In this document: positions 1,469-18,611 of the stretch, piece by piece | Layout: every line of letters begins with the position of its first letter | How positions within the stretch are numbered: the stretch's first letter is position 1 | Source: Nocardioidaceae bacterium | GTDB taxonomy: Bacteria; Actinomycetota; Actinomycetes; Propionibacteriales; Nocardioidaceae | Assembly (NCBI GenBank): GCA_013693815.1 | Contig: CP059259.1 | Span: forward strand, 2,744,550 to 2,765,910 | Length of the DNA stretch: 21,361 nucleotides | Reading direction: 5' to 3' | Made by a program: the position numbers and the translations under genes | The notes under the pieces: generated by a model | Databases searched by the model: none | What the model was told of the DNA's origin: nothing | The model's input: only the letters and a program-made list of their open reading frames with translations

Positions 1469-2161
1469 TCTGATCGACGTGCCCGAACGTCGCGCCGTCG
1501 CAGTCTCCGACTTCGAGATCCGCAAGTCCGGCGACCTGCTGTCCCTGCGCGGCTACGCATCGGTCTTCGACGCCCCCTACGACATCTACGGCGGCCCCGA
1601 AAAGGGCGGCTGGACCGAGATAGTCGACAAACGCGCCTTCGACGTGACGTTGCGGGAAAAGCCCGACCTCCACCTGCTCATCAACCACGAGGGCATGCCA
1701 CTGGCGCGCACCAAGTCCGGCACCCTCAAGCTCTCGACCGACAGCACCGGCCTGCTCGTAGATGCCCCCGACCTGGACCGCCGCGACCCCGACGTGCAGC
1801 GGCTCGAAGTCAAGATGGAGCGCGGCGACATGGACGAGATGTCGTTCGCGTTCCGGGTCAAGAAGCAGGAATGGGAAGACGACGAGACACTCCGTCGCCT
1901 GACCGAGGTCTCCTCCACAAGGGCGACGTGTCGGTCGTCAACTTCGGCGCCAACCCGGCGACCTCGGTCGGCCTGCGCGGCCTGCTGTCCCAGCTCGACG
2001 ACCTCGACGACACCGTGGCGCTTGCTGAGGCCAGGGCGCTAGGGACCCTGGATGACCTGATCGCCGCACGCGACCTACTGACCCGCCTCGTCCGCGAGGC
2101 CACCCCGGCCGAGAAACGCACCCTCACGGTTGCGCAAGCTCTCGCCGCCCAAGAGGTCTAA
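1452..2161 (+). CDS. HK97 prohead protease (S78/U35 family), frameshifted as read
   Basis: The GTG start at 1452 has AAGGAGG at 1439-1445. Residues 1-154 are in one frame: LRGYASVFDAPYD (about 32-44), LLINHEGMPLARTKSGTLKL with putative catalytic His79, and DMDEMSFAFRV with putative catalytic Ser131. The family's conserved continuation (LHKGDVSVVNFGANPATSVG) lies one frame back, from about 1913, and runs to TAA 2161. A single missing C near 1910-1915 (GTCTCCTCC) explains this exactly and restores EVSLHKGDVS. The reconstructed length is about 236 residues, normal for the family. The protease processes the capsid protein and other prohead components before expansion. No slippery heptamer is seen, so programmed frameshifting is unlikely. 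Identity is secure; whether the break is biological is not. Confidence 0.88.
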
Positions 2162-2299
2162 CCACCTCACCCATTCTTCGACCGCCGTCCTGGCACTGGA
2201 CGCGGGCGATGGACCTGGCACTGGTCCGGCTCACCACGCACAAGCGCAGTGACGCCACCCATCCATCCATCACCCCGATCCATTGCCAGGAGGCAAATC

Positions 2300-3715
2300 A
2301 TGGACGAGCGTCTCAAGCGGCTTATCAAGCGCCGCGAGGAGAAAGCTGAAGAGCGCCAGAAGCTCTTCGATCAGCGCAAGGCGATCACCGACCTTGCCAC
2401 TGAGGAGGCCCGCGAGGACCTCTCCGAGGAAGAGGACAGCGAGTTCCGTTCGCTGACCGACCAGATCAAGGCGTGCGACCTCGCGCTCAGCGAGTTCGAC
2501 GAGCGGATCAAGGAACTGTCTGACGAGGAGGCTCGCGCCAACGAGCTGACCGCCGGCGCCGAAGCTGTGCGTCGTGCTCAGGCGCGTGCTCAGGTCACTG
2601 AGGGCCGCACTTACGACAAGGGCAACGGCCAGTCCTACTTCCGCGACCTGATGCGGCACAGCTTGCGCATCGACGGCAGCGAGGAGTCCAGCGAGCGGCT
2701 TCGTCGGCACGCCATCGACGTGCAGACTGCTGCGGAGTACCGCGACCTGTCCCGCGTGGACGGAGCGGGCGGGTACTTTGTGCCCCCGGCCTGGCTGATG
2801 TCGGACTGGGTCGAGCTGCCCCGCGGCGGGCGTGTCACGGCCGACCTGGCCAACCCGCAGCCTCTCCCGGGTGGTACGGACTCGATCAACATCCCCAAGG
2901 TCGCCACCGGCACCGCTACGGCGGTCCAGTGGACTGCCTCGTACTCGGACAACGCTCCGGTGCAGGAGACCGACCTGACTGACACCTACATCACTGCCCC
3001 GGTGCGTACCATCGCCGGCCAGCAGGATGTGGCGATCCAGCTGCTCGACCAGTCCCCGGTCCCGTTCGATCAGGTCATCTTCCAGGACCTGATGGCCGAC
3101 TACGACACCAAGGTCGACGTGCAGGTGCTCTCCGGCTCCGGCTCGGCTGGCCAGGTGACCGGCATCCGGAACACAGGCAGCATCGAGACGGTCAGCCTGA
3201 CCGACACTCGCGCCTCAGCGCTGTACGCGAAGATCGCTGATGCGATCCAGCGCGTGCACACCCTGCGGCACGATGTCGCCACGGCAATCGTGATGCACCC
3301 GCGTCGCTGGGCTGCCTACAACGCATCGTTCGACACCACCGGCCGACCGCTGTCGGTGCCGAACTCACAGGCCCCGCAGAACGCGATCGCCCAGCTCGGT
3401 CCGGTGGCCGCACGCGGTGTCGTCGGGAACATCCAGGGCCTCCCGGTCCTGACGGACCCGAACCTGCCGACCAACGTGTCCAGCACCCAAGACGTCGTTT
3501 TGGTGCTGCGGGCCTCGGATCTGCGCCTGTACGAATCGGCACTGCGGACTCGGGTCCTGCCCGAGGTCGGGTCTGGGACGCTCACGGTCCGGCTCCAGGT
3601 GTATGGCTACCTGGCCTTCACCGCGGGCCGCTACCCGAAGTCCATCGTGTCCATCGGCGGCGCGGGCCTGACCACTCCGAGCTTCGACGGCCCGGACGAG
3701 TCCAGCTCTAGCTAA
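2300..3715 (+). CDS. Major capsid protein, HK97 fold
   Basis: I choose ATG 2300 (471 residues) because AGGAGG at 2288-2293 sits six bases upstream. A start at 2249 in the same frame has no such site. Residues 1-85 are highly charged and helical (MDERLKRLIKRREEKAEER onward), the usual delta or scaffold domain removed by the prohead protease. The rest is HK97-like: GGYFVPPAWLMSDW near the N-arm/E-loop region, then TWQ-type beta strands, a QDVAIQLLDQSP segment and IVMHPRRWAAY. It forms the icosahedral shell. The C-terminus ends in an acidic/serine tail (DESSSS), a smaller echo of the tail tube protein's end. The frame is intact and a long hairpin follows at 3726-3770. Confidence 0.93.
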   Translation: MDERLKRLIKRREEKAEERQKLFDQRKAITDLATEEAREDLSEEEDSEFRSLTDQIKACDLALSEFDERIKELSDEEARANELTAGAEAVRRAQARAQVTEGRTYDKGNGQSYFRDLMRHSLRIDGSEESSERLRRHAIDVQTAAEYRDLSRVDGAGGYFVPPAWLMSDWVELPRGGRVTADLANPQPLPGGTDSINIPKVATGTATAVQWTASYSDNAPVQETDLTDTYITAPVRTIAGQQDVAIQLLDQSPVPFDQVIFQDLMADYDTKVDVQVLSGSGSAGQVTGIRNTGSIETVSLTDTRASALYAKIADAIQRVHTLRHDVATAIVMHPRRWAAYNASFDTTGRPLSVPNSQAPQNAIAQLGPVAARGVVGNIQGLPVLTDPNLPTNVSSTQDVVLVLRASDLRLYESALRTRVLPEVGSGTLTVRLQVYGYLAFTAGRYPKSIVSIGGAGLTTPSFDGPDESSSS

Positions 3716-3725
3716 CCGAACGGGT

Positions 3726-3770
3726 GCTGCGCGGCGTGACCTTCTGCTCGGTCGTGTCACGTCGCGCAGC
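3726..3770 (+). promoter_or_regulatory. Long hairpin just after the capsid gene
   Basis: Arms 3726-3740 (GCTGCGCGGCGTGAC) and 3756-3770 (GTCACGTCGCGCAGC) pair over 15 bp with one G-T wobble, around a 15-base loop. CGGGT (3721-3725) and ACCCG (3773-3777) extend it past a small bulge. There is no T-run after it, so it is not a classic terminator. It may attenuate transcription after the abundant capsid gene or protect the 3' end of its message. Confidence 0.6.
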
Positions 3771-3798
3771 CAACCCGGCCAACCGAAAGGAGCCTGCG

Positions 3799-4050
3799 AT
3801 GGCTGAGATACGTGACGAGCAGGCCGACCTCGTGGCTGCCTATCGTCTGGAGTACGACCTAGCGGTCGAGCAGGGAAACCAGCGCAAAGCGGCCCGCGTC
3901 GCGGCGATCCTCCTCGCCGACCACGGCATCGAGGTCACCGCACCTGTTGAGCGGGCTATCCCCACCGATGACCTGGAGACACGCCCCGCCGACCCGCGCT
4001 CCACGAAGCGGACTCGCACCAAGGCATCCAAGGCCACCGACTCCAAGTAG
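3799..4050 (+). CDS. Small unknown head-region protein
   Basis: ATG 3799 is preceded by AAAGGAG at 3786-3792, which fixes the start and gives 83 residues. The N-terminal half is acidic and helical (AEIRDEQADLVAAYRLEYD; QRKAARVAAILLADHGIEV). The C-terminal third is Pro/Thr/Lys-rich and probably disordered (TRPADPRSTKRTRTKASK). Position directly after the capsid gene and before the MuF-like gene is where actinophages often carry a small virion or assembly protein. I do not recognise a family. Confidence 0.7.
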   Translation: MAEIRDEQADLVAAYRLEYDLAVEQGNQRKAARVAAILLADHGIEVTAPVERAIPTDDLETRPADPRSTKRTRTKASKATDSK

Positions 4051-4053
4051 CCA

Positions 4054-4710
4054 ATGGCCCACACCTCAACGCGCAACGAGCTACTACGCAAACGGCGCGT
4101 CGATGCCACGGTCGCAGAACTCGTCAAGGTACTGACCGATCAACGCCAGGACGTGCAGGCGCGGCTCGACTCCCACGCAACCACGTTGCTGTCCAAAGCA
4201 TGGGACCAGCGCCTGGCTGAGGTGATCGGGCCGGTGAATCTCGCCACCGCCCGCGAGGTCGCGCTCCGCGTGGCCCGCGCGCTGGCCGGGAAAGGCCACG
4301 GCTACGACCCCGACGTGATGACCAACTGGCTGACCCTCAACGCAGGTATCGCGGCCGAGTCAGTCAACGACTCCACCCGAGCAAGCCTCGCTGCGGCACA
4401 GGAAACAGACGACCCCGACCCGGTGGGCAGCGTGTTCGACCTACTACTCACCAGCGGTGTCGCCTCTCTGGCGGTATCGATGGTCACCACAGCGGTCAAC
4501 TTCGCTGCCCACGACGCCGCCCAAGCAGTCGGCGCGCAATACAAGACCTGGAACACCGGACGCAACCCACGCCCCCGGCACGCCGCACTCAACGGGCAAG
4601 TCGTGGCACTCGACTCCACGTTCTCCAACGGTGCCCGCTACCCCGGCGACCCGACCCTCGGTCCCGCCGACCTCGCCCGCTGCAACTGCTCGATGACGAT
4701 CTCCACCTAA
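4054..4710 (+). CDS. MuF-like minor head (head morphogenesis) protein
   Basis: This 218-residue protein has a helical N-terminal two thirds and a C-terminal domain of the phage Mu gpF (MuF) type. That domain is seen at about 169-218: a Trp-containing lead-in (TWNTGRNPRPRHAALNGQ), a strand ending in FSNGARYPGDP, and the closing LADLARCNCSM-type Cys motif (here ADLARCNCSMTI). MuF proteins are minor capsid components linked to the portal, and the fold sometimes carries toxin or ADP-ribosyltransferase partners; none is fused here. It starts three bases after the previous stop (ATG 4054) without a strong ribosome-binding site, so coupling is likely. The frame is intact. Confidence 0.75.
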   Translation: MAHTSTRNELLRKRRVDATVAELVKVLTDQRQDVQARLDSHATTLLSKAWDQRLAEVIGPVNLATAREVALRVARALAGKGHGYDPDVMTNWLTLNAGIAAESVNDSTRASLAAAQETDDPDPVGSVFDLLLTSGVASLAVSMVTTAVNFAAHDAAQAVGAQYKTWNTGRNPRPRHAALNGQVVALDSTFSNGARYPGDPTLGPADLARCNCSMTIST

Positions 4711-4724
4711 AGGCGGTGACCCCG

Positions 4725-5198
4725 ATGCCGACAGCCCCGACAGCAAGCGCGTTCGCCGCAGTCCGCCGCTTCTGCCGCTGGCATGTGTTCCCCTCCCAAC
4801 AAGAGACGGCCACTGTTGACGGAACCGGCACCAACAAACTGGTCCTCAAGACCCTGCACCTCACCGACATCACGTCCGTGACCATCAACGACCAGGCCAT
4901 CGAGGACTACACCTGGGACACAGGCGGCATCGTGACCCGCAGCCGTGGCCGCTGGCCCCGTGGCATCAAGAACATCACCATCGACTTCACCCACGGATAC
5001 CCCAACGTCCCCGATGACCTCGATGCCGTCCTCGAATCCATCGCAGCCCGAGCGGGCGCGTTCCCCATCGCCGGGGCCGAACAACAGAACGCAGGACCGT
5101 TCGGCGTGCGGTTCACCAAGGGATACAGCGGCGGCCTCGCGCTCCTGGAGTCCGAGAAACAAGCCCTCGCCGACTACCGAGTCCCGGTGGGGTTCTGA
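4725..5198 (+). CDS. Head-tail connector (adaptor) protein, gp6/gp15-like
   Basis: I prefer ATG 4725 (157 residues), which has AAAGGCGG at 4709-4716 eight bases upstream. An in-frame GTG at 4716 lies inside that site. The N-terminus contains FAAVRRFCRWHVFP, a pattern common in actinophage head-to-tail adaptors. It is followed by beta strands (LVLKTLHLTDITSVTIN; YTWDTGGIVTRS), then FTHGYPNVPDDL and a helical C-terminus. It would bind under the portal ring and extend the DNA channel. It lies in the expected order between the MuF-like and stopper genes. Confidence 0.75.
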   Translation: MPTAPTASAFAAVRRFCRWHVFPSQQETATVDGTGTNKLVLKTLHLTDITSVTINDQAIEDYTWDTGGIVTRSRGRWPRGIKNITIDFTHGYPNVPDDLDAVLESIAARAGAFPIAGAEQQNAGPFGVRFTKGYSGGLALLESEKQALADYRVPVGF

Positions 5199-5200
5199 CG

Positions 5201-5518
5201 ATGCAGCCCGTTGTACACACCGTCAGGACCACGACTAGAAACGCGGACGGCGACGGAATCGAAACGGCCGAGGTTGTATCCCGCTCGGCCCTGATAGCGC
5301 CGGGAGCATCCCCTGAGAGCAACGTGGCGAGCGCACCGAATGTGATCGTGGACTACACCCTCTACTTTCCCGGCCAAGAGTTCGAGGCCGACTCTGATGA
5401 CGCCTTCACCTTCTACGGCCAGGATCACCGAGTGGTGGGCCACTCCAAGACATGGCCGTGGATGTCGGGCGGCATCGCGGGGACCGTGGTCGAAGTCGTG
5501 AGAGCGGGCAAGGTCTGA
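5201..5518 (+). CDS. Head closure / head-tail stopper-like protein
   Basis: This is a 105-residue, beta-rich protein starting two bases after the connector stop and ending in a TGATG overlap with the next gene. It has strands such as VIVDYTLYFPG, the conserved-looking FYGQDHRVVGHSKTWPW, and GGIAGTVVEVVR. Size, fold type and place in the order (connector, stopper, neck, terminator) support a neck protein that seals the packaged capsid. Assignment rests mainly on synteny and a weak family impression. Confidence 0.62.
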   Translation: MQPVVHTVRTTTRNADGDGIETAEVVSRSALIAPGASPESNVASAPNVIVDYTLYFPGQEFEADSDDAFTFYGQDHRVVGHSKTWPWMSGGIAGTVVEVVRAGKV

Positions 5519-5832
5519 TGGCGCGCAAGGGCGTCACTCTCGACCACGCGGGCATCGCGTCGATCCTCAAGTCCGCGGGCGTCGCGTCCGTGATTCAGTC
5601 GGCAGCCGAGACCATGAAGGCCGACATCGAGGCCGCTGGTGTCACCGTTGGCGACCGTGACGGTGGGCCGCGTGAGATCGCGCTACCCGTCACCGTCACG
5701 ATGTTGACCACCGACCGGGCGAAGGCCCGCGTCTCCCTGGCGCACGCAGCAGGCGAGGCAGTGCAGGTGAAGCACGGTCTGCTTACCAAGGCTGCCGGTG
5801 CTGCTGGTCTCGATGTGAGGGCCAAGAAGTGA
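5518..5832 (+). CDS. Neck / minor head-tail joining protein (HK97 gp10-like position)
   Basis: ATG 5518 overlaps the previous TGA and gives 104 residues; a longer in-frame start at 5452 would lie inside the upstream gene. The N-terminus is helical (HAGIASILKSAGVASVIQSAA), followed by a two-strand element with basic residues (REIALPVTVTMLTTDRAKARVSL) and a helical end (KHGLLTKAAGAAGLDV). This helix-beta-helix size class at this place in actinophages is usually called a neck or head-tail joining protein. The stop overlaps the next start (GTGA, 5829-5832). Confidence 0.6.
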   Translation: MARKGVTLDHAGIASILKSAGVASVIQSAAETMKADIEAAGVTVGDRDGGPREIALPVTVTMLTTDRAKARVSLAHAAGEAVQVKHGLLTKAAGAAGLDVRAKK

Positions 5833-6245
5833 AGCCACTCGTTGAGTTCGGGGACCCCGAGACGCTCCTACGGTCCTACCTCGAAGCCGTCCTCGCCGAT
5901 GAGACGCCAGTCCCCAGTGTCTCGACCGAGTTCCCCGACCAGCTCCGCGACAACCAGCGGCGCGTCCAGATTCAACTCGAAACCAGTGATGCCGCGGACT
6001 GGCCCGTGACCGAGCGTGCCCAAGTCCGGGTAACCGTCCACGCCCCGAGCACGAGGCGTTCGGAGGTCAAGTCGCTGGCGTCCCGGGTTCAGGGGCACCT
6101 GTACCGGCATCCCGGCAGCGCCGAGCTAGCCGCCTGTATCCCAATGTTGGGCAGGTCGTCGGTCGTAACCGATCCGACCACGCACAACCTCATGGTCTGG
6201 TTCCTGTGCCGGGCCATTCTCAAGCCGATACCCGTGTCGGCCTAA
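5829..6245 (+). CDS. Tail terminator-like protein
   Basis: This 138-residue protein starts at GTG 5829 inside the overlap with the neck gene. It has an N-terminal helix (DPETLLRSYLEAVL), a conserved-looking run RRVQIQLETSD, strands (RAQVRVTVHAPS), a central helix with basic residues (SEVKSLASRVQGHLYRHPG) and a C-terminal beta strand pair (LMVWFLCRAIL). This is the alpha/beta plan of tail terminators (lambda gpU / HK97 gp10 class), which cap the tail tube and join it to the head. Position directly before the tube gene supports the call. Confidence 0.65.
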   Translation: MKPLVEFGDPETLLRSYLEAVLADETPVPSVSTEFPDQLRDNQRRVQIQLETSDAADWPVTERAQVRVTVHAPSTRRSEVKSLASRVQGHLYRHPGSAELAACIPMLGRSSVVTDPTTHNLMVWFLCRAILKPIPVSA

Positions 6246-6250
6246 GTCGT

Positions 6251-6269
6251 CTGCCGCCCCACGCGGCAG
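6251..6269 (+). promoter_or_regulatory. Hairpin upstream of the tail tube gene
   Basis: CTGCCGC (6251-6257) and GCGGCAG (6263-6269) form a perfect 7-bp stem with loop CCCAC. It lies between the tail terminator stop and the ribosome-binding site of the tube gene, in the untranslated leader. It may protect or isolate the tube message. No T-run follows. Confidence 0.45.
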
Positions 6270-6317
6270 AGCAACCGCGCGCATTCACCCTTCACAACTC
6301 TCTTGAGGAGCCTTGTC

Positions 6318-6920
6318 ATGTCTGGACATGGAGACACCAAAAAGACCGCGGTGTGGGGCGGCGCGGACGTATTGATCGCGCCCGCCTCCGCGACCATTCC
6401 CACTGGCCTTGCTGCATTCAGCGGCGACTGGAAGTTCGTCGGCTTGCTCGACGGCGGCCAGGGTTTTGAGGAAGCTATCGAGGTCGAGTCCACCGACTTC
6501 AATGCCTGGGGCTTCGGCGTCGTGGCCACCACCTATCGGGGCCAGAAAACCACCAAGACCTTCACGGCACTGGAGGAGAACGCCACCGTCATGGGGCTCG
6601 TGTACGACACGGCGGGCATGACGTTCAGCGACGAGGACGGCACCTACATCGGTGACCTGGCGGTCAAGGACTTCACCGAGAAGGTCCGGATCGCGTTCGT
6701 CACCTACTCCGGTAGCACGGAGAAGCGCTTCATCTCGAAGAACTACGCGACCATCGCACCCTCTGCGGCGGGCACCGAGTCGGAGGAGGCCCTGCAGTCC
6801 AAGGGCTTTACCGCCACCGTCTTCCCGACCGAGGGCCGGGTGCTCTGGTACGCCGTCAAGGACACCAACGACGACTCGTCGTCGTCTTCGTCCTCCGAGT
6901 CTTCCTCGTCTTCGTCCTGA
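6318..6920 (+). CDS. Major tail (tube) protein with serine-rich C-terminal tail
   Basis: ATG 6318 has GAGGAG at 6305-6310 and gives 200 residues. An in-frame ATG-like start at 6303 lies upstream of that site and is less likely. The body is a beta-rich tube subunit: VWGGADVLIAPASA, KFVGLLDGGQGFEEA, STDFNAWG, YRGQKTTKTFTALEEN, DFTEKVRIAFVTYSG. The repeated subunit polymerises into the tail tube around the tape measure. Residues about 185-200 are almost all serine with a few acidic residues (NDDSSSSSSSESSSSSS), written with TCG/TCC/TCT codons. This probably disordered, surface-exposed end is unusual. Hairpins lie on both sides of the gene. Confidence 0.85.
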   Translation: MSGHGDTKKTAVWGGADVLIAPASATIPTGLAAFSGDWKFVGLLDGGQGFEEAIEVESTDFNAWGFGVVATTYRGQKTTKTFTALEENATVMGLVYDTAGMTFSDEDGTYIGDLAVKDFTEKVRIAFVTYSGSTEKRFISKNYATIAPSAAGTESEEALQSKGFTATVFPTEGRVLWYAVKDTNDDSSSSSSSESSSSSS

Positions 6921-6929
6921 CCCCTGATC

Positions 6930-6967
6930 GGCCGGCCCGGAGTTCCGCGCGGTTCGCCGGGCCGGCC
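6930..6967 (+). terminator. GC-rich hairpin after the tail tube gene (possible attenuator)
   Basis: GGCCGGCCCGG (6930-6940) and CCGGGCCGGCC (6957-6967) are a perfect 11-bp inverted repeat with a 16-base loop. There is no T-run. The loop holds GCGCGGTTC (6948-6956), which is complementary to GAACCGCGC occurring twice downstream (6976-6984 and 6995-7003). The second copy lies at the ribosome-binding site of the next gene. An alternative fold could therefore hide that site. Confidence 0.55.
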
Positions 6968-7004
6968 TCACACCTGAACCGCGCTACCTGGAAGGAACCG
7001 CGCA

Positions 7005-7316
7005 ATGACCGAGAAAACTAAGATCGAGAAGCTCAAAGACGAAGCCGAGGGCAACGACACTGCCACCTTCTTCTGGCGCGACATCGAATTCACAGTGCCG
7101 ACCAATGCCGACGACTGGTCCACCGACTTCTTGGAATCGCTCGAGGAGGGCAAGGCAGTCGGCATCGTCCGCGGCGCTCTCGGCCCAGCTCAGTGGCGCA
7201 GGGTCAAGGCCATGAACCTCAAGGTCCGCGACCTCAGCGAACTCAGCGAGCAAGTGGCCAAGGCGATGGGCTTCGGCAGCACGGGGAATAGCCAGCCTCG
7301 TCTGGGTCCTCAATGA
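7005..7316 (+). CDS. Tail assembly chaperone, upstream product (gpG analogue)
   Basis: ATG 7005 follows GGAAGGA at 6990-6996 and gives 103 residues. The N-terminus is charged and helical (TEKTKIEKLKDEAEG), followed by FFWRDIEFTVPTNADDWSTDFLESLEEGK and a helix-rich second half (RVKAMNLKVRDLSELSEQVAKAMG). This is the usual character of the lambda gpG analogue, which coats the tape measure during tail assembly. It ends at TGA 7314-7316, but a fraction of ribosomes should shift into the downstream frame to make the longer gpGT product. Confidence 0.8.
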   Translation: MTEKTKIEKLKDEAEGNDTATFFWRDIEFTVPTNADDWSTDFLESLEEGKAVGIVRGALGPAQWRRVKAMNLKVRDLSELSEQVAKAMGFGSTGNSQPRLGPQ

Positions 7317-7539
7317 GCATGGGGACGTAGCCGAGGCGTCGTTGGCCTATCAGGGTATTGACCTACTCGATGCGTTCCGGGGCCGCATCAGTGCCCGCAA
7401 GCTGTACGTACTACTCAAAGCACTGCCAGCGGATGCGCCGCTCTGGGGTGCGATCAAAGCCGCTGAAGAAGCCGCGCTTAAGCCGCAGGCAGATCAGATC
7501 CGGGACCGGACGAAGTACTGGGCAGATCGCGGGAACTAG
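7005..7539 (+). CDS. Tail assembly chaperone fusion (gpGT analogue) made by ribosomal frameshift
   Basis: The second frame runs from upstream of 7261 to TAG 7539. It contains LVWVLNEHGDVAEASLAYQG, LLDAFRGRISARKLYVLLKALP and a charged end (AEEAALKPQADQIRDRTKYW), typical of the T part. Frame 0 must become frame 1, a +1 or -2 shift; a plain -1 shift meets TAG at 7289. The best slip site is ACG GGG AAT (7281-7289), where GGG could re-pair on GGA, giving about 177 residues. If one base is missing here as elsewhere in the window, an ordinary -1 shift is also possible. The region has no separate start with a ribosome-binding site for the T part. Confidence 0.68.
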
Positions 7540-7783
7540 GCGTCACCAGATAGGTGACGAACGCACTCAGTATCGCGGCAGCCCCCAGCACGATCAGTGC
7601 ACCGGGGATGGGTCGGGCGTTTGCCCGCACGTACCCGCACTCGCTGTTGCTATCGCTCAGTAGCGAGTCCGGGCCACTGAACACGCTGCCGCAATCGAGG
7701 CCGACTGGCAGTAGCCCGAGGGTCAGTCCGCCGATTAAAAGCACGACGCCAGTCGTGATCAGGCACGCAAGCAAGGTTCTCAT
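7478..7783 (-). CDS. Antisense two-helix membrane protein between tail chaperone and tape measure
   Basis: This 101-residue gene reads leftward from ATG 7783 and overlaps the last 62 bases of the chaperone fusion antisense. It has two strong membrane segments (about 3-27 and 59-80) separated by a 30-residue loop with Cys31 and Cys49 that could form a disulfide outside the cell. The C-terminal tail (TPSSRDLPSTSSGPGSDLPAA) is polar and disordered. The sequence CGSVF...C resembles a class of small actinobacterial membrane proteins I have seen, but I cannot name a family. Opposite strand and separation from the late operon suggest a moron, expressed in the lysogen, possibly altering the envelope or superinfection. 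Only a weak GAGCGG precedes the start. Confidence 0.6.
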   Translation of the reverse strand: MRTLLACLITTGVVLLIGGLTLGLLPVGLDCGSVFSGPDSLLSDSNSECGYVRANARPIPGALIVLGAAAILSAFVTYLVTPSSRDLPSTSSGPGSDLPAA

Positions 7784-7831
7784 CCGCTCAATCTGCCACG
7801 GCTTATCCCAATGTCGCCAGAGGGTGCGCGC

Positions 7832-10263
7832 ATGTCCTCTGTCGGTTACGCCACCCTCGATGTGATCCCCTCGCTCAAGGGGCTGCAGAAGCGCCTTGAC
7901 GCGGAGGTCGTTCCGGCTGCGAAAGCCGCTGGCAAGAATGCCGGTTCACAGATGGGTGAGGCTGCCTCGAAAGAGGCGGGCGGCAAGATCCGGTCCCACT
8001 TCTCCAAGGAGCTTAAGCAGCTCGGGGCAGTGGCCGCTGGTGCGTTTGCGGGCCGGGCGATCGTCGGGTATTTCTCCGGCGCGATCCGAGGTGCCTCTGA
8101 TGCCGAGCAGGCCATCGGTGGTGTCCACGCGGTGTTCGGCAAGTACGCCGATGAGGTGGAGGCACGTTCTAAGACCGCTGCCCAGTCCCTCGGGTTGACT
8201 TCGACGGCCTACCAGCAGTTGGTCACTGTCTCCGGTGCCCTGTTGAAGAACAAGGGCCTCGAGGACTTCGCGGCCCAGGCCGAGCAGCTCGTGCAGACGG
8301 GCGCGGACCTGGCGGCCCAGTTTGGTGGCTCGACCAAGCAAGCGGTTGAGGCGTTGAACGCGGCCATGCGCGGTGAGTCGGACCCGATCGAGCGGTACGC
8401 GATCAGCCTCAACGAAACCAGTGTCCAGGCTGAGCTGGCGGCTCGTGGGCAGAAGAAGCTCACCGGCGCGGCGTTGGAGCAGGCCAAGGCCCAGGCCCGG
8501 TTGGCGATCATCCAGAAGCAGTCCGCCGACGCGCAGGGCACCTTCGCCCGAGAAGCAGACACGCTGGCGGGCCAGCAGCAGCGGCTGTCGGCGCAGTGGC
8601 AGGAGATGCAGACCACGCTGGGCATGAATCTCTTGCCCGTGGTGACCCAGTTCGTGGGCGCCATGAACAACGGGGTTCTTCCGGCGATCGAGTCAGTGGG
8701 TGGCGGTGCCGCCGACATGGTGAGGTGGTTTAACGAGCTGCCGCCGCCGGTTAAATCTGCTGCCGCGGCGTTGGTTGCGTTCAAGGTTGCGGCCCGGTTC
8801 GATCTCGGCGGCAAGATGTACTCGACCCTTTCGGGGTCGGAGGGGTCCTCGGGACCGTGCGCACGCGGGCATTGTTCGCCGCTGACGCTTTCCGGATTGC
8901 TGGCGGTAGTGCGAACCGCATGGCGGCTGGCCTCGCAGCAGCACGGGTGGCCGCGTCGGGTACAGGAACTGTGCTGCGGGGCGCACTCGGGCTCGTCGGC
9001 GGACCCTGGGGCGCTGCGTTCATTGGCGGCACGGCGATCCTGACCCACTTCTGGCAAGAGCACCGCAAGGCCAAAGCGCGAGTCCAAGAGCTGACCGACA
9101 CCCTGGACAAGCAGACCGGGGCCGCGACCGAGAACACCCGGGCGCTAGTCGCCAAGCGCCTCGAAGATCAAGGGCTCCTTGAAGTCGCCGAGCGACTGGG
9201 CTTGAAGACCGCTGACGTGACGACCGCGGTCATTGAGCAGGGCAGCGCACTCGATGACATCGTGGACAAACTCCGCAATATAGAGGCCGCGAACCGTGTT
9301 CACACTGGACAGGGCGCGATCCTGTTTTCGATGGGCCGTGATGCTATCGACCTGCGCGAGGAGCTGACCCAGACCGATAGTGAGCTGAACAAGGCAACCG
9401 CGTCCTTCTACGCCAACGCCGAGGCGGCCCGGCGCGTCGAAGAGGCAACCGGGGGCGCTGCTGCTGCGACGGGCAAGAGCGGCAAGGCCTATGACGATCT
9501 GACCACGAAGGTCAACAAGGCGCGGGACGCGATCTTCAAGCTGATCGATGCCGAGAATAAGAAGCGCAACAACGCCTTGGCTGTGCGTGGTGACCAGATC
9601 GCGCTCAATCAGGCCATGCTCGACCTGAAGAAGCAGGCCACTGAGGGCGCCAAGGGCTTGAAGCTGAACACTCAGGCAGGGCTCGACAACAACAGGGCAC
9701 TGCAGGACTTGGCCAGCCAGTGGGCGAACTCCGAGCAGAAGGTCAAGAACGCAGACGGTGCCTACCGCCGTATTCGCGCCTCCTTCATTGACGCCGCGAC
9801 CGAGATGGGCGCGACCAAGAAGCAAGCCAAAGAGCTGGCCGACAGGCTGTTGGAAACACCGAGGAAAGTGGAAATCAAGACCTCTGTTCCCGGGCTTGAG
9901 GCCGCTATCGAGGCTTATGAGCGGCTCGCGGCTGCCGCGAGACGCGCGTATGAGGCGAGGCGCGGCGGTGTGGTGAGGAACGCAGGCGGGCTGCAAGCTC
10001 GTGCTGACGGTGGCCCGGTGTCACGGTTCACGCCCTATGTGGTGGGTGAGCGCGGACCCGAGATCTTCATGCCGAAGTCTGATGGGCAGATCATTCCGAA
10101 CCATCAGATCCGCACCGGCAATGGCGGCGGGACGCCTGTCGGCGGTGGCCTCACTGAGGCCGACGCGAAGATGCTCGCCAAGGCGATGGCACCGACCCTC
10201 TATGACGCGGTCTACCGCGGCATGGCGCAGCAGCAGGACATCTCTATCGGAAGGGGTCGTTGA
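7832..10263 (+). CDS. Tape measure protein, frameshifted as read
   Basis: ATG 7832 (MSSVGYATLDVIPSLKG, the common actinophage tape measure opening) has CAGAGGG about seven bases upstream; ATG 7811 is in frame but has no such site. The first part runs in frame to about 8830, then the same protein continues one frame back (VGGVLGTVRTRALFAADAF onward) to TGA 10263. A missing G in GGGG at 8832-8835 restores SGVGGVLGT. The reconstructed protein is about 810 residues: long Ala-rich helices, a hydrophobic stretch (TVLRGALGLVGGPWGAAF), more coiled coil and a Gly-rich C-terminus with FTPYVVGERGPEIFMP. It sets tail length and is delivered with the DNA. The C-terminal GERGPEIFMP segment is a common tape measure tail motif. 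Confidence 0.86.
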
Positions 10264-11594
10264 TGCCGAATCCGCCGTTCCCGTTGCTGCGGTTCGTGGC
10301 GGCCCCGTCGCTGGATGCTGAAGTGTTCTTCGACTTCAACCCGCACGGCATCAAGCCCGACAGCTTCTCTCTCGGCTCCCCGTCGTACTTGGGTGATGTG
10401 GATGCGATCGCGCCGTCGCTGGGTTTCCGGTCGGTGTCGTTCACGGCGCATTTCGCGTCGTCGAAGTTCGATAACGCCCGTGATGCGGTGCGGTTGTCGC
10501 GGGAGATGGCGCGGGACCGGAACTGGTTGTTGTGGTGGTCGGACGACAAGGTCCCCCGGTGTGGTTCCGGACCTATCCCAGTGCGCCGGGTGCGGTGTCG
10601 TGGGACTGGTGGCGGCCCTTCGGGGAGTCCGACATGCTCGCGTTGCCGCTGGTGATTGATGCAGATGCGGCCATGCTCGGCGAACGCGCCGATCTGGGTG
10701 AGTACGCGATCGCGAACGACCCGCAGGGTGTCGCAGAGTCTGACCCGGCGAATGCTTACACGCGGTTGCCGGAGATTAAGGGTGATCTTCCTGCGCCGTT
10801 GCATGTGCGGGTCGGGGACACGGGGTCGTTGCAGCCGCTGTTGGTGACGGCGTCGAGTTGGCCGCGGCGGATGTGGGCGCAGACCTCGACGGTCACGGGT
10901 GGTTCGACAGGCTCGGATGCTACGGCGTCGGCTGGGTCGTATGTGACGCGGACGCTGACCTCGAGTTATCAGCAGGTGGCGCGGGCGACGATCGACAACA
11001 TTTGGCACGCGGGCCGGTACCGGGTGTTGGCGCGGGTCCGGACCTCGGGTGCGGGCGGGGAGAACATCAGGTTCCGCCTGGTCAATGGCGAGGCCCGGAA
11101 GCTCGCGACCGGCGAGTGGACTGTGGTGGATCTGGGTGTGATCGCGGTCCCCGGAGCAACCTGCCGCCGCCGGGCGCGACGCAGATCTGGTCGCAGGAGA
11201 TCTATCTGGAGGCGCTGCGGACTAGTGGGTCGGCGGCGTTGCATGTGGACTATATGGCGTTGGCGCCGGCGTCGATCCCGGGCGAGCAGGTGACCACCTT
11301 TGATGCGCGGGTGGCATCGCCTGTGTTGGACCCGGGCGGTGCGCAGGATTGGATCTGGATCGACGGCGAGTCCCGGTTGTGCGGGGTCTTGGATCGGGTG
11401 CACGGGGTCGGGGACTTCTATCCCTCTCGGCCCGCGGCGATTGGGTTTGCGGGCGGGTTCCCGCATGTCTTCCCGGCTCGGTCAACGCGATGGCGATGTA
11501 TCCACGGCAAGCGCTGGGTGGTGACGCGCTGACGTTTACCCCGAAGGTGCAATTGTCCTATCACCCGCGCTATCTGATTCTTCCGGGCGCATGA
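10263..11594 (+). CDS. Minor tail protein, Dit-like, with inserted beta-sandwich domain; three frame breaks
   Basis: ATG 10263 overlaps the tape measure stop. The protein is read in three frames joined by single missing bases: near 10550 (AAGGT), near 11149-11152 (CCCC) and near 11472-11476 (CCCGG). Reconstructed length is about 444 residues. The N-terminal part (FNPHGIKPDSFSLGSPSYLGDVD; FTAHFASSKFDNARDAVRLSRE; VWFRTYPSAPG) and the end (LGGDALTFTPKVQLSYHPRYLILPG) are Dit-like. Between them, about 10850-11275, lies a jelly-roll-like segment (SYVTRTLTSSYQQVARATI; HAGRYRVLARVR; IRFRLVNGEAR) that looks like a carbohydrate-binding insertion. It would sit at the hub between tube and baseplate. The domain call is inferred from strand pattern. 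Confidence 0.72.
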
Positions 11595-13253
11595 CCGGCC
11601 CGTTGTCGGTCCGGGTCCGTGACAGTGCCGGTGGCGATCGGCACCCGAGGTTTAGCGGCCTGCGGTTCACCTGGTCGGCTTACGGTGGCCCGGTCGAAGC
11701 CGCTGCGACGTTGACGGCACCCTTAACCGACTTCCATGACCTGGGGCCGAATGCGCCGTTGACAGTGTACGACACGGGCACAGGCGAGGCGCTGTTTGAG
11801 GGTTTTTGACGATCCCTGGCCAAACCTCGGGGCGTGCGGGTCAGTCGTTTGAGGTCAAGGTCGCCGGCGTGGGGACGCTGGCATCGGATTCGTCACGGCC
11901 CTACATCCTGGTGACCAACGACCTGGGCGGCTGGCAGCGGTACCGGACCTCGAAACCCAACGCCACCACGGGCACTGACGAGGACCCGACCACCGCTGAA
12001 CCGTGTTTGCAGGTCTCTGCCGATGAGGGCAAGACCGTGGGCACGACCTGGTGGGGCGACTGGGCCAACGAAACGTTGGCGGATGCGGGCATGATCCTGG
12101 GCCGAATCCGGGCGCGTGCACTCGCGGGAGTGACGACGGGTTGGCAGATGTCGATCCGCACCAAACCCAGTGCCGTGGTGTTCGGTGATGGGACCGCGCG
12201 CCGCACCATCACAGCCCCAGCTACACAAGCGTGGCTGATCAGCGAACGGGGCGGCAGTAATCCGATCACTGATGGTGACGATGTGCCGATTCTGCGGGCC
12301 GCTCGCTCGGGGTCCGCGACCACGGGTGTTGAAGCTGCGTGGTTCGACTTCTCCGAGATCTATCTGACTGCTGAACGGTTGGGGATCGACGGGACCCGGA
12401 TACAGACCGGGTATGGGACCAGTGCTGTGTTGCCGCATCAGGTGGTGGCCGACATGGTCGGGCGCGGGATGCTGCCGATGGTCGATGTGGATCGGTGCGT
12501 GATCGATGAGTCCACCGCCGAGATCTGGCAGCTCGCGTCCCCTGAGGGTATTAGCGGGTCGTCGGTGCTGGACATGTTGCAACTGTGGGAGTCGGACTTC
12601 CACTGGGGCTACGGACCTAGTGGCAGCGTGAGTGGTTATCCGTTTTGGTACCGGCGTTGGGATGACACCAACCCGGTCTACGAACTCGATGACGCCACGG
12701 ATCAGGTGCAGATCGAGGGGTCGGGGGACGACCTGTGCAACCGGATCGTGGTCGGTTACACCGATGCCCAGGGCCGCGCTCGCACTGAGACGGTGACCAG
12801 TGTTGTCCCTGCCCTGGGGTCGCGGGTCCGGGATGCTGAACCGTTGACGTTGCCTGCCGGGTACGGCACCCAACTCGACGCCCAGCTGATCGGCACCCAA
12901 CTCCTGGCCTCGAAAGCACATCCCCACTGGCCGGCAAGGCAGTGATCCGACGCAAGATCCGCAACCTGCAGACCGGGGATCGACTGAATCCGTGGGAGAT
13001 CCGGCCCGGTGTCTCGATCGTGCGCCGCTCCACAGGCGACGTGATCCGGTTAGCCGAGGTCACCTACGACCACGACGCCCGCGCCGCCTCTCTGACGCTG
13101 GGGTCGCCGCCACTGAACAGCCGGCAACTCATTGAGCGGCTAGCGAAACGTGCACCCGTATCCAAGGCGATCAACGTGACCGCGGTGTATGCGACCTATC
13201 ACGCCAAGGGCAACAAGAAGACCAAACAGAAGTACGGGATAGAGGAGGTCTAG
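11591..13253 (+). CDS. Minor tail protein, Tal-like baseplate hub; two frame breaks
   Basis: ATG 11591 overlaps the previous TGA (ATGA). The frame breaks at a T-run (11803-11807, GAGGGTTTTTGACG) and at CCCC (12922-12925); one added base at each gives a continuous protein of about 554 residues ending at TAG 13251-13253. It opens with beta strands (LSVRVRDSAGGDRHPRFSG), has a hub-like core with FFSEIYLTAERLGIDGTRI-type helices (DFSEIYLTAERLGIDG), an ESDFHWGYGPSG segment, and a C-terminal part with NRIVVGYTDAQGR and LGSPPLNSRQLIERL. Length and place directly after Dit fit a tail-associated hub protein. No peptidase motif is seen. Confidence 0.7.
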
Positions 13254-13255: not shown

Positions 13256-13801
13256 ATGGGGTTCGATGACCTATTGGAGTTCAACGGCACCGACATTGGC
13301 ACGATCGTCGGATACACCTACGACCTCAAAGTCGGCACCACGTGGCAGCTGACCTGGACCGTGGTCGATGGCGACGACGCCAACGTTGACCTTTCGACCG
13401 GGTTCACGGCCTCCGCGAACCTCTGCACCAACGACGGTGTATCCCGGCTAGCTTTCACCCACGAGGAGACATCAGGTCGCGAGATCGATCTGTCGGAGCC
13501 GGGGTCGATCGTGCTGCGCTCCACTCCCGCAGGTAATGCCGGGATGTCGTCCTACTACCTGCAGCCGTTGCGGTTCGACCTGACCGTGACCCGGACCTCC
13601 GATGGCGCGAAAGTCCCGATGATCCGGGACTGCTTCATCGTCCCCGCCGACTCGACGCCGCCTGACATGACCGACGACTGGGACACCCCGAAATCGTCCG
13701 GGCACTCAAGCGGCTCGAAGAGGGCCAGGCACGCACCGAGGGCAAGGTGGACAACATCGCCTCGGGGTTTGTGCCGCGTAGCGAGTTCGAGGCACGGATG
13801 A
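13256..13801 (+). CDS. Small beta-rich tail-region protein; 3' end uncertain
   Basis: ATG 13256 has GAGGAGG at 13242-13248 overlapping the end of the preceding gene. About 135 residues look like a beta sandwich (IGTIVGYTYDLKVGTTWQLTW; DLSTGFTASANL; SIVLRSTPAG; FDLTVTRTSDGAKVPMIRDC), a type often found after the baseplate genes in actinophages. The frame as read stays open to TAG 13801, but after about 13690 its sequence turns to nonsense (SSGHSSGSKRAR) while the real continuation is the next gene in another frame. The true stop is therefore probably near 13663-13670, where an ATGA overlap with the next gene would be expected. Function unknown. Confidence 0.55.
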   Translation: MGFDDLLEFNGTDIGTIVGYTYDLKVGTTWQLTWTVVDGDDANVDLSTGFTASANLCTNDGVSRLAFTHEETSGREIDLSEPGSIVLRSTPAGNAGMSSYYLQPLRFDLTVTRTSDGAKVPMIRDCFIVPADSTPPDMTDDWDTPKSSGHSSGSKRARHAPRARWTTSPRGLCRVASSRHG

Positions 13802-13941
13802 CAGCGCAGGACCGCGAGATCCGTGACATCAAGGCCGCTGCGTCGTCCTCGCGGCTTTCGCCACTGGCGGTGGCTTCCACGATCATCAGCTTCCTCACCT
13901 TGATTCTGGCGCTGGTTATCGCGGTCGCAGTCAAGCCATGA
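13667..13941 (+). CDS. Coiled-coil protein with C-terminal membrane anchor, frameshifted as read
   Basis: ATG 13667 begins MTDDWDTP; the frame then breaks at CCCC (13686-13689), and one added C gives EIVRALKRLEEGQARTEGKV onward to TGA 13941. The roughly 91-residue product has an N-terminal helix and coiled coil (DNIASGFVPRSEFEARM; QDREIRDIKAAASSSR) and a single strong membrane segment near the end (LAVASTIISFLTLILALVIAV). This coiled-coil plus C-terminal TM plan is common beside lysis genes in actinophages and may act as a holin or lysis-timing protein. Its stop overlaps the next ATG (13938). Confidence 0.62.
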
Positions 13942-14642
13942 GCCTCGACCTGTGCACATGGAACGTGGGCAATGCGTCCAATGCCAAGGTACTCAAGGAT
14001 CTGCTTGCCCTGCTCGACCAGTGCGATGTGCTTGCGCTGCAAGAGGTTGGTGACCGGGGCGCTGTCCTGCATCAGGTGTGCGTACAGACGGGCGCGCGGC
14101 TCGTGCGTTTCTCCGGCGAGGGCCGATCCTCGGGGCACGTCGCGCTGCTTGTCACCAAGGGCATCAAGGTCACGTCCTCGGACATCACCCTGATCAGCCC
14201 CAAGACCTATGTCGGCCGCCTCGTCGCTGGCAGCCGCAAGACCGGCTACGCGGAGCCGAAGTACATCGTGCGGGCCACGGTGCGCAAGGCCGGCGACCGT
14301 AAGCCGTACCCGGTCGGTGTCACGCACTTGGTACCCAGCACGTCGAACCCGGCCAACGGCAAGGCACGGTCCTTGTACCGCCGCCAGGTCGATGGCTGTG
14401 TGCGCTGGATGCTCACCCGCAAAGCAGGCAGGCCCGTGGTCTTGTGCATGGACGCCAACGCTGGGCCAATGCGGAAACTCCTTGCAGGGCTGAGGAAAAT
14501 CGCCGCCTACATCGCGCCACGGTCACACGGGCGCAGACGCATCGATCACATGTGGCTACGCAACTGCGCCGCGTCGAACGTGCGCGCCGTCAAGACAAGC
14601 AGCGATCACCGCGCAGTCCTAGCGACCATCACGCCCGCTTAA
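13938..14642 (+). CDS. Endonuclease/exonuclease/phosphatase (DNase I-fold) family enzyme
   Basis: The 234-residue frame is intact, starting at ATG 13938 in an ATGA overlap. All usual EEP motifs are present: TWNVGN (Asn9), LQEVGD (Glu36), GVTH (His130), MDANAG (Asp172 and Asn174), RIDHMW (Asp203) and SSDHRAV (Asp223, His224). These are the metal-binding and catalytic residues of the DNase I fold, so a divalent-metal-dependent phosphodiesterase is likely. The substrate cannot be read from sequence: host or phage DNA, RNA or a small phosphoester are all possible. It lies between the membrane anchor gene and the endolysin. Its presence in a lysis cassette is unusual; degrading released DNA or defence against it are guesses. 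Confidence 0.85.
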   Translation: MSLDLCTWNVGNASNAKVLKDLLALLDQCDVLALQEVGDRGAVLHQVCVQTGARLVRFSGEGRSSGHVALLVTKGIKVTSSDITLISPKTYVGRLVAGSRKTGYAEPKYIVRATVRKAGDRKPYPVGVTHLVPSTSNPANGKARSLYRRQVDGCVRWMLTRKAGRPVVLCMDANAGPMRKLLAGLRKIAAYIAPRSHGRRRIDHMWLRNCAASNVRAVKTSSDHRAVLATITPA

Positions 14643-14655: not shown

Positions 14656-14727
14656 CTCGGCCTAGCTGCCGAGACGCCGGTGGCCTTTGTCAGGGAACTA
14701 GGCCCTCTCTGCCCGTCCCCTTCGGGG
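14656..14727 (+). ncRNA. Structured intergenic region before the endolysin gene (possible RNA element)
   Basis: The 178 bases between 14643 and 14820 hold no gene. They contain three stems: CTCGGC/GCCGAG (14656-14661, 14668-14673), GGCCT/AGGCC (14682-14686, 14700-14704) and CCCC-TTC-GGGG (14717-14727). No T-run and no clear promoter are seen. A leader, attenuator or small RNA is possible; I cannot place it in a known family. Confidence 0.3.
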
Positions 14728-14820
14728 TAGCCCGCCTCGCGCGGTGCCTGTGACGCACGGATATAGGGCGCGACCGGCACTTACTCATCGACCCGACTTC
14801 TAACGCATGGAGGTCGACTC

Positions 14821-15362
14821 ATGCCCCGAACTCCCCAGCAGGCAATCGCCGCCGCTGCACAGCAAGCCAGTGATGGGCCGCGTTTCGAGGTCGGTACCTG
14901 TCTCATGCAGGTTCGCGAGTGCTACGACGTCGCCGCCCGCTACCCCGACGCTGCGACCGCCTGGGAGCACGCCCGCCAGCAGGTCACCCGCGACCCGAAC
15001 GAGATCCCGCGCGGAGTGCCGGTGTGGTGGACCGGCGGCGCGAAGGGTCACGGACACGTAGCTATCTCGCTTGGCAAGGGCATGTGCTGGTCCACCGATA
15101 TCAAACGCCCCGGCTACTTCGACCGCGTACCCATCGCCGACATCGGCAAGCGGTGGGGCTGACGCTGGTCGGCTACAGCCCGGACATCAACGGCGTCACG
15201 GTGTGGACCAAACCCGTCAAGCGCCGCCCCAACGCTGACGCGATGCTCGCCGCCGCCCTCAAAGGGCAGGCCTGGCACACCCGAAAGCAGCACCCGAAAC
15301 GCGCTGCCCTCTTTGCCCAAGCCGCCAAGATCGCTCGCCAACTCGGCGGGAAGGAGAAGTGA
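14821..15362 (+). CDS. Endolysin, cysteine peptidase (CHAP/NlpC-like), frameshifted as read
   Basis: ATG 14821 has GGAGG at 14809-14813. The frame breaks at GGGG (15155-15158); one added G restores RWGLTLVGYSPDINGVTVW and continues to TGA 15362, about 180 residues in all. A likely catalytic Cys27 (GTCLMQVREC), His77/His79 (GHGHVAI) and Asp93 (STDIK) fit a papain-fold CHAP or NlpC/P60 peptidase acting on peptidoglycan. The C-terminal 50 residues are basic (KPVKRRPNADAM onward) and may bind the wall. The holin follows three bases later. No mycolate esterase (LysB) is seen in the window, which would be expected if the host is mycolic-acid-bearing and it is not encoded elsewhere. The peptidase subclass is uncertain. 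Confidence 0.7.
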
Positions 15363-15364
15363 CC

Positions 15365-15553
15365 ATGTCCAACCCACTCAACGAGGCCCTGCCCGCCAGG
15401 CACCGCAAGGCCGTCTACGCCGTGCTGTTTGTGGTCGGCGTGATCGTCGCTGCCGTACAAGCCTCCGATGGTGACTGGTTGACCGCACTTGCGGTCATCG
15501 TCGCCGCGCTCGGTGGCCCCGGTATGGCCGCCTCCAACGTCAACAAGAGCTGA
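15365..15553 (+). CDS. Holin-like small membrane protein
   Basis: ATG 15365 has AAGGAGA at 15351-15357 and gives 62 residues; GTG 15359 is an in-frame alternative. It has a short basic N-terminus (SNPLNEALPARHRK), two membrane segments (AVYAVLFVVGVIVAAVQA and LTALAVIVAALGGPGM), a short loop and a polar tail (SNVNKS). Two-helix proteins of this size next to the endolysin are usually class II holins, which open the membrane for the endolysin. Confidence 0.78.
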   Translation: MSNPLNEALPARHRKAVYAVLFVVGVIVAAVQASDGDWLTALAVIVAALGGPGMAASNVNKS

Positions 15554-15560
15554 GGTAGTC

Positions 15561-17074
15561 ATGGCTCGTCGTGGTGGTATGCACCCCGGACGCCGGGGAC
15601 TGACCGGACCTGCTGGCCCAGCCGGTGCCGCAGGCGCTACGGGACCCACAGGTGCCGCTGGACCCACAGGTCCCCAAGGTCCCGCTGGTTCGGGCATCAA
15701 CTACAAGGGCACAGTCGCATCCTCTAGCGAGTTGCCCACCTCGGGTAACACGCTGGGCGACGCCTGGTCATCGACCGCTGACGGCGACGATGTGTATATC
15801 TGCATCGGCCTACCGGGCACCTGGGACGGACCTAAAGACTGGGCCGGCCCTACGGGACCCACGGGGCCAGCTGGTCCTACGGGGTCGACGGGCGCGAAGG
15901 GCGACAAGGGAGACCAGGGCGACCCCGGGTCGACAGGCCCCACGGGTGCGGCTGGTCAAGGTGTCCCCACGGGCGGCACCACGGGCCAGATCCTCGCGAA
16001 GAAGACCGGCACGAACTATGACACGGAGTGGGTTACGGGGACCGCGGTCACTGACGGCGACAAGGGCGATGTGACCGTCTCGGAGTCGGGGTCGGTGTGG
16101 ACGGTAGATGCCGGTGCCGTGGTGAAGCTGACGGGCAATCAGTCCGTCGCGGGGGTGAAGACTTTCAGCGATGCGCCGGTGGTGCCGACCCTGGAAGCTG
16201 AGACCGATACCGATGAGGTGGCGTCGACGGCGTTTGTGCAGGAGGCGATTGCTGCTGCTGCGATCGCGGAGGGTTTCAAGCGGTGGGTTTCAGGCAGGGA
16301 CGCTGACCCGGAGGAGCCACTACCAGAGGGCGTCTCGTGGGAGGTGTGGCTGGACGAGGCTGAGCCGGTCCCGGACTGGGTGCCTCCGTACACGAGCATT
16401 ATTCGTTTGGTTGAGGAGACGGACCCGACCCCGGTCCCGGTAACCGCGAACTTCGTCGGCGAGTTCAAGTCGACGGGCAATGTCACTACCTCGGGTTCGA
16501 TCAGTATCGGGTCGGTTCCGATCGGCACCCCGATCCTGGTACTCGCCGCAGCGGGATCAGCTAGCGCTGGCCTGGGTGTCACCAATACCAATAGCAATAC
16601 CTGGTCCCTGCTGGCATCCCATACCGTCACCGCGTCGGCTGCTACGGTGTCGGCCTTTTTGACGGTCGCTACGTCGGCGACCTCGGATTCGGTGACGGTG
16701 ACCCGGTCTCCTTCGGGTGGGCTCGCGGTCGCTGTCTACACCCTGGATGGCTCCGATGGGACGCTCGCGAACTCCGGGTCGGTACCCCAAGGCAAGTCCG
16801 AATCGAACGTCACTTCGGCCACGTCGGCGGCGGTGACCGCGCTGCAGGACGGCCTCGTGATTTTCGCGGTCGCCACCAGCCACGACGTGACCTCGGTGAC
16901 CGCGACCGGGTCGACCGACACCGCTACCCAGTACGCCGGATCAGGGACAGGCAACCCCGCTCGCTGCTGGTCGGCCTGGATCAAGCCGCGTCGGCTGGGT
17001 CCTCCACGCCGGGCATGTCGTGGACCAGCTCCCGGACGTGGACCGGGATCACGCTCGTGTTCAACCCGAGCTAA
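15561..17074 (+). CDS. Collagen-like tail fibre protein, frameshifted as read
   Basis: ATG 15561 (MARRGGMHPGRRGL) begins seven bases after the holin stop; a longer frame start at 15489 lies inside the holin gene. Two collagen-like G-x-y blocks occur, about residues 13-46 and 95-136 (for example KGDKGDQGDPGS). A spacer lies between them, followed by a globular/beta-rich region with repeated Ser/Thr strands. The end breaks frame at CCCC (16955-16958); one added C gives PRSLLVGLDQAASAGS onward to TAA 17072-17074. Reconstructed length is about 504 residues. Collagen-like repeats form trimeric shafts in phage fibres. This is likely a receptor-binding fibre. C-terminal receptor domain type is unknown. 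Confidence 0.78.
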
Positions 17075-17089
17075 AAGGAGAGGCTGTAG

Positions 17090-18611
17090 ATGACAACGTT
17101 GGGGATCATCGGGGACTCTCTCACCGACCGGGCCGAGGACCATCCCTCGCCCCCGACGCGGGAGATGCTGACCCGCGCCGTCATGGTCGGGGTCGGGTAC
17201 CGGGACAGTGATGTCGGGTGGAAGGCCCGCGGCGGAAAATCGCTGACCGGGGTCGATAGTGCGGGCAAGACCACGATGCAAGACATCGCTGATCTCCGCT
17301 CTCAGCTCGGGGTGTCGGTCGGTGGGTGATCGCACTCGGCACCAACAACGGCGCCGACGACAACCCGACTTTCGCGGGCCGCGTTAACACCGTCCTGGAC
17401 GCGATCTACCCGACCGGAGACGAACCCGACCGGGTGTATTGGGTCAACATGGCGGCCCTCAACCCCGCCAATGCGACCTATGCGCGCCTGAATCCCGTCT
17501 TGGCGTCCACGCTCGCTGGGCGCCCCGAGGGCAACCGGATTACCTTGCTCGACTGGCACACCCACATCCACTCGCCGGGCATCTTCGACGTGGACGATTG
17601 GCTCCCTGCTGATATCCCGCACATGACCGCCCAGGGATACGCCAAACGGGATGCCTTTATCGCGGAGGCAGTACGACCGGGATTAGTGGCGACACCGCTT
17701 CCCTGCACGTCGTGGACGGCGACGGGGACGAGCGGGCCACCACCCTCGCGCTCTGGGTCGACGATGTGGAGCACCCCGCGTATGTGACCACCGCCGCACC
17801 CGACATCGACGTCGAAGAACCCGACGACGACTATCCCGAATACCCCACCATGCTGGCCGGGTACCAGCTGCAGGCGCAGCAGATCGATACCTCCTACAAC
17901 CAAGGCTGGACCCAAACCAACGGCGTGAGGACCACCGACCAGGCGATCAACCGGGCCGCCAACACTGCCTTCGGGCAAGGCCCCGACAACGACGCGATGG
18001 TGGTCACCGTCACCTACGACGGCACCAACTACTACAGCTCCGATGCGCAAGCGCGGTTCTGTCCCATGCCCCCGGTCGGGGTGGTCGAATGGTACGGACG
18101 GATGGGGCCACTCGGGTCCGGGTCCTTCCCCGCCGTGTGGGCTCGGCCGTCTGGTGCCGGGGATGGGGAGATGGATTTCTTCGAGTGGAAGGGCAAATTC
18201 TGGCTCCAGGACCCCAACCACATCAGCCGGTTCGTGATGAACTACATCACCACCTACAACGGCAGCTACACGAATCAGAAGATCAAGGTGATCAACCTCG
18301 GGAGCGGGCTCAACGCCAACAGCATCGATCTGACCGAGTGGCACCACTACCGCTTCCGGTGGACCAGCACCTCCGGCACCTTCTGGATGGACGGCATCCA
18401 GCTCGGGCAGATCACCCGCGCCAACTCGGTCAACCAGATCGGGAACACCGACTTCGACTCCCAGTTTGGTGGCACCCACGATTGGTATCTCCGGGTCACC
18501 TATCAATTCGGGCTCGGTACCAAAGGCACCGCCGGTGGACCCGCCGACCCCAACATCTGCCCGACACAGCTGTGGGTCCGCGACATCAAAATCTGGGAAC
18601 CCGAACCCTAA
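17090..18611 (+). CDS. Tail fibre with SGNH esterase and GH16-like domains; two frame breaks
   Basis: ATG 17090 has AAAGGAG at 17074-17080. The first domain is an SGNH/GDSL hydrolase: GIIGDSLTD (Ser10), ALGTNNGADD and DIPHM (Asp/His of block V at 17611-17622). Frame breaks near 17309-17325 (GGGG) and 17665-17690 (CCGGGA) are repaired by one added base each. The chain continues without stop through a linker (SGDTASLHVVDGDGDERATT) into a jelly-roll domain at about 17990-18600. That domain has FPAVWARPSGAGDGEMDFFEW; Glu, Asp and Glu at codons 18168, 18174 and 18183 match the GH16 catalytic pattern ExDxxE. Reconstructed length is about 507 residues. An esterase plus endoglycanase on a fibre suggests degradation of a decorated surface polysaccharide. 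It could also be two genes if a start was lost. Confidence 0.75.

Follow-up and report, generated by a model that had tools for sequence, protein, structure and literature searches.

The late genes of a siphophage-type prophage in the contig CP059259.1 appear to change reading frame twelve times, always in the same direction, which raises the question of whether the breaks are a property of the phage or of the sequence that was deposited. The stretch analyzed here (the window; 21,361 nucleotides, bases 2,744,550-2,765,910 of a single-contig genome of 3,302,829 bases) was assigned its content by comparison with Pfam and PHROGs. The portal (PF04860), prohead protease (1452-2161, plus strand, PF04586), capsid (PF05065) and a collagen-like fibre (15561-17074, plus strand) have Pfam matches, a tail assembly chaperone and a tape measure protein are matched in PHROGs, and a GH16-like domain scores just below the Pfam cut-off. 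Relatives of the capsid are present in eight GTDB contigs (from Streptomyces, Nocardia, Isoptericola, Mycobacterium and one MAG), and 90 were found in IMG/VR, of which 80 were kept. An intact open reading frame (ORF) at 13938-14642, in the interval between the tail genes and the endolysin, has no PHROGs match in its frame; judged by eye, its motif suggests a putative member of the endonuclease/exonuclease/phosphatase family.

The chromosome was sampled as 20 stretches outside the window, amounting to 400 kb or about 12% of the genome, and the comparison sets were 400 kb from five relatives, 88 phage-bearing loci and, for counts of single-base runs, 57 relatives. The window has a 20-kb flank on each side. 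One (L003) is poor in Ns, with six sites, and has few long ORFs; the other (L004) has a gap between Ns at 1695-8171 that contains four deletion-type steps of the hidden Markov model (HMM) used below and a collagen-like ORF.

Twelve frame steps in the late genes

A sequence-only reading of the window had reported twelve frame breaks of one sign, mostly at homopolymers, and had attributed them to consensus deletions in long-read sequencing. All twelve are -1 steps (3>2, 2>1 or 1>3, plus strand). Log-odds from a codon model, for which 20 other stretches of the chromosome served as training data, place the claimed frame first in each of the 20 pieces that flank the steps; the lowest values are those of the 5' part of the SGNH gene (3.9, the weakest of the 20), the 3' part of the fibre gene (5.7) and the 5' part of the Tal-like gene (6.1). 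A frameshift-aware HMM, run without homology, recovers ten of the twelve steps at a loose penalty and six at a strict one, all as deletions, and at the loose penalty it reads the step at 11803 as a gene overlap and that at 17309 as a gene start. The loose run also calls one extra -1 step near 10243, before the junction of the tape measure and Dit-like genes (10243-10263), and this was tentatively taken for the overlap or junction of the two genes.

Alignment of the late proteins to homologues, which had been proposed as a check, shows continuity across five of the twelve steps. Of 69 loci that include the 5' part of the prohead protease gene, some of them near-duplicates, 65 cross the step at 1910-1915 (called at both penalties) with a single ORF, and the exceptions are four (L053, L056, L058 and L101). 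The tape measure gene (about 7832-10263) has tape measure PHROGs matches on both flanks of the step at 8832-8835 (both penalties), and the database proteins P0003 and P0015 are continuous across it. The Tal-like gene (11591-13253) has two steps, the first at 11803-11807, where P0001 (100% identical) and P0002 continue, and the second at 12922-12925 (loose penalty), where P0002 is again continuous and P0001 terminates at the window's own stop. Across the step at 15155-15158 (loose penalty), both pieces of the endolysin-like gene (14821-15362) are matched in one frame by a viral locus, L139.

For the remaining seven steps, which have no homologue for comparison, the basis is coding statistics alone. 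Three lie in the Dit-like gene (10263-11593), at 10550 and 11472-11476 (both loose penalty) and at 11149-11152 (both penalties); one is at 13686-13689 in the gene at 13256-13941 and one at 16955-16958, shortly before the collagen-like fibre gene ends, each called at both penalties. The last two are in the SGNH/GH16 fibre gene (17090-18611), at 17309-17325, which has coding log-odds and no HMM call, and at 17665-17690, which is called at both penalties. Viral scans found two loci for the endolysin piece and no relative of the 3' tape measure piece or of the Tal, Dit and GH16 pieces, and protein searches returned two entries for Tal and one for Dit; at the step at 10550 the homologue searches had no match. 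The SGNH pieces gave nothing significant in Pfam, PHROGs or PDB sequences, and the names SGNH, Dit-like and Tal-like are those of the sequence-only reading.

The association with homopolymers holds as well. A run of at least four identical bases lies within 12 nt of nine of the twelve steps, where 2.7 would be expected at random places, and nine was reached in 0.0002 of 5000 draws; at the steps at 1910, 11472 and 17665 the runs are of three bases at most.

The HMM calls a single step of the opposite sign in the window, near 7279 (insertion type, loose penalty), and this lies outside the twelve. It is located in the pair of tail assembly chaperone ORFs at 7005-7539, in which phrog_5813 is matched at 55-139 in one frame and at 140-200 in the other. 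Programmed frameshifting is known in tail assembly chaperone genes, and this pair likely uses it, its apparent sign perhaps altered by one more consensus error.

N and NN insertions across the chromosome

The 20 sampled stretches contain 307 isolated N sites, 274 of a single N and 33 of NN, with no other lengths, and such sites are absent from the 400 kb of the five relatives and from the 88 phage-bearing loci. Two sites too close to the end of a stretch were left out of a test of reading frame. At 285 of the other 305 the frame is kept across the N inside coding sequence when the N is counted; the remaining 20 have noncoding sequence on both sides (seven) or on one side (six), a difference in frame (six) or a difference in strand (one). 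Runs of at least four bases occur within 12 nt of 176 of the 305 sites, compared with 13% at random. Among the 285, the single N occupies the third codon position at 131 of 132 plus-strand sites and the first at 122 of 125 minus-strand sites, so that in plus coordinates 253 of 257 keep to one side of the triplet, while NN fills the other two codon bases in 27 of 28. This constancy of side is the mark of a program.

Passages of PMC7966762 identify CP059259.1 as PAO3A-tig00000209, a contig of 3,302,829 bases in the GTDB family Nocardioidaceae, obtained from an activated-sludge enrichment with MinION sequencing and Canu assembly. The CheckM completeness given there rises from 87.00 for the uncorrected contig to 95.38 after MEGAN-LR; the genome completeness of 91.18% differs from the latter value. 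The rule of MEGAN-LR, as described in passages of PMC6469205, is that the sign of a frame change in a DIAMOND alignment decides whether N or NN is inserted there. Lengths of N and NN only and insertions that keep the frame, the two marks of a MEGAN-LR-corrected nanopore genome, are both found here, and the frame-preserving single N and NN insertions are shared with the genomes in the passages of Arumugam et al. 2019 (PMC6469205) and 2021 (PMC7966762). The window differs from these in being a patch-free tract, and unpatched prophages are not discussed in those passages. Homopolymers are named as the origin of nanopore indels in the abstract of PMC9262707, and the word 'homopolymer' does not appear in the main text of PMC6469205 or PMC7966762. 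Our literature search returned no paper joining MEGAN frame-shift correction, phage or prophage, nanopore and homopolymer.

The chromosome also has a ceiling on the length of single-base runs. No run of six or more occurs in the 400-kb sample, and GGGGGG or CCCCCC is matched six times in the whole genome, compared with 270-1635 times in each of the 57 relatives (where overlapping matches were counted); AAAAAA or TTTTTT has 14 overlapping matches genome-wide. Shuffling of synonymous codons predicts 153 G/C runs of at least six in 200 sampled ORFs, and none is observed, with observed-to-expected ratios of 0.17-0.35 in the five relatives and 0.26 in the 88 loci. The ceiling exceeds what codon use alone explains.

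Within the stretches neighbouring Ns are spaced 1.24 kb apart on average and 11.6 kb at most, which makes an N-free window of 21.4 kb unusual. An N stands directly before base 1 (position 20000 of L003) and another directly after base 21361 (position 1 of L004), and because the window was thus cut between two successive Ns, only bare errors are visible in it.

Break rates in the window and in the chromosome

By the HMM, deletion-type steps number 59 per 100 kb of coding sequence in the window versus 11.6 in the rest at the loose penalty, and 32.4 versus 2.8 at the strict one. A true concentration of breaks in the prophage was considered and dropped, since the excess is gone once the N patches are counted. 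The chromosome sample has 7.87 in-frame patches for every 10 kb of coding sequence, a rate that predicts 14.7 breaks in the 18,629 coding bases of the window, where 12 were reported (P of 12 or fewer, 0.30). The patch rate elsewhere is therefore about the same as the break rate in the window, and the prophage tract is not more broken but merely unpatched. Nor is the uniform sign remarkable: single Ns make up 89% of the patches (274/307), and 0.89^12 is about 0.26, on the assumption that N and NN mark opposite signs.

Some breaks remain in the patched chromosome, where deletion-type HMM steps occur at 1.25 per 10 kb in N-poor gaps of at least 3 kb and at 1.11 elsewhere. The HMM made 42 deletion-type calls at the loose penalty in the 20 chromosomal stretches, and eleven of these (21 distinct pieces) were compared with family libraries. 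Two are clear profile splits, with a thymidine kinase profile divided into 2-69 and 66-213 between two frames of L015, and a mannose-1-phosphate guanylyltransferase profile divided into 1-197 and 195-339 between two frames of L020; two others coincide with normal borders between genes (a pair of fumarases; SepH with its neighbour), and seven are ambiguous. In the five relatives the HMM made many calls of either sign (loose penalty, 90 and 72; strict penalty, 44 and 24), but the pooled model is uncalibrated for these GC-rich genomes and the counts carry no weight here. A count of chromosomal steps against ORFs of the five relatives yielded 27 events (16 deletions and 11 insertions) and was set aside, consisting mostly of loose alignments with paralogue noise.

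Unpatched consensus deletions and the alternatives

We conclude with high confidence that the twelve breaks are deletions in a nanopore consensus that were left without correction, and the feature is almost certainly a sequencing artefact of an already published kind, for which no biology is needed. The attribution to long-read consensus deletions made from the sequence alone is thus borne out, by the MinION source, the N and NN patches, the scarcity of runs of six, the matching rate and the residual chromosomal breaks. Beyond that reading, the rest of the chromosome is patched and the prophage tract was left unpatched.

In this account, bases would be lost from the MinION consensus, mainly where one base is repeated a few times, and such losses would leave frame steps of a single base, usually in the same direction, about once in every 1.3 kb of coding sequence; deletions in MinION consensus sequences are described in the papers cited above. 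The depositors would next have compared the contig with known proteins and marked each change of frame with N or NN depending on its sign, a pattern observed here and a rule described in passages of those papers. The prophage tract received no patch, which would have left its errors bare, and it was presumably skipped at least partly for lack of alignable reference proteins. The few protein-search entries for Tal and Dit fit such a shortage. The protease break, however, stayed unpatched despite its homologues, some of which are in named genomes; these homologues are abundant, and missing reference proteins would therefore be only part of the reason. Two further observations tell against the account: at three of the twelve steps the runs are of three bases at most, and deletion-type HMM steps in the chromosome show no excess in N-poor gaps.

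There is a slim chance that at least one break is a true frameshift in the phage population of the reactor, with an altered tail gene, and the most likely candidate is the step at 12922 in the Tal-like gene. P0001, which is identical to the Tal pieces of the window and belongs to a contig of 5834 bases with six member sequences, runs through 11803 and stops at the window's stop after 12922. P0001 thus lacks the first break, whereas its shared stop after the second counts against the consensus-deletion reading; our guess is that P0001 derives from another assembly of the same community.

That stop after 12922 would also suit real decay, in which a dead prophage gathers frameshifts in its late genes, as at first sight would the density of HMM steps, far above that of the rest of the chromosome. 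We nevertheless consider decay very improbable, since the excess vanishes when the chromosomal patches are counted and P0001 is intact at 11803. Decay would also be expected to leave steps of both signs, extra stops and larger indels, whereas all twelve steps have one sign and the 20 flanking pieces, taken from frames open between stops, still score as coding. Programmed frameshifting at single-base runs, with genes read across two or more frames, could account for twelve steps of one sign mostly at such runs and has a parallel in the frame change between the two chaperone ORFs, but we give it next to no credence, as the chaperone step is of the opposite sign, the protease is a single ORF in 65 of 69 loci, the tape measure, Tal and endolysin homologues cited above are also single ORFs, and P0001 again reads through 11803.

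Reading the breaks as unpatched consensus deletions has consequences for the use of such genomes. Where a genome is corrected by alignment to proteins, its mobile and little-known genes can retain raw errors, with the result that a prophage seems dead and its tail genes seem split, and scans of N-free windows favour the unpatched tracts. One split call, P0123, has already entered a protein database; it is the window's own 219-residue piece, apparently from CP059259.1, and its source contig is listed as 3,302,929 bases, 100 more than the 3,302,829 of the genome and of the published contig. As biology the finding means nothing, and its use is as a warning.
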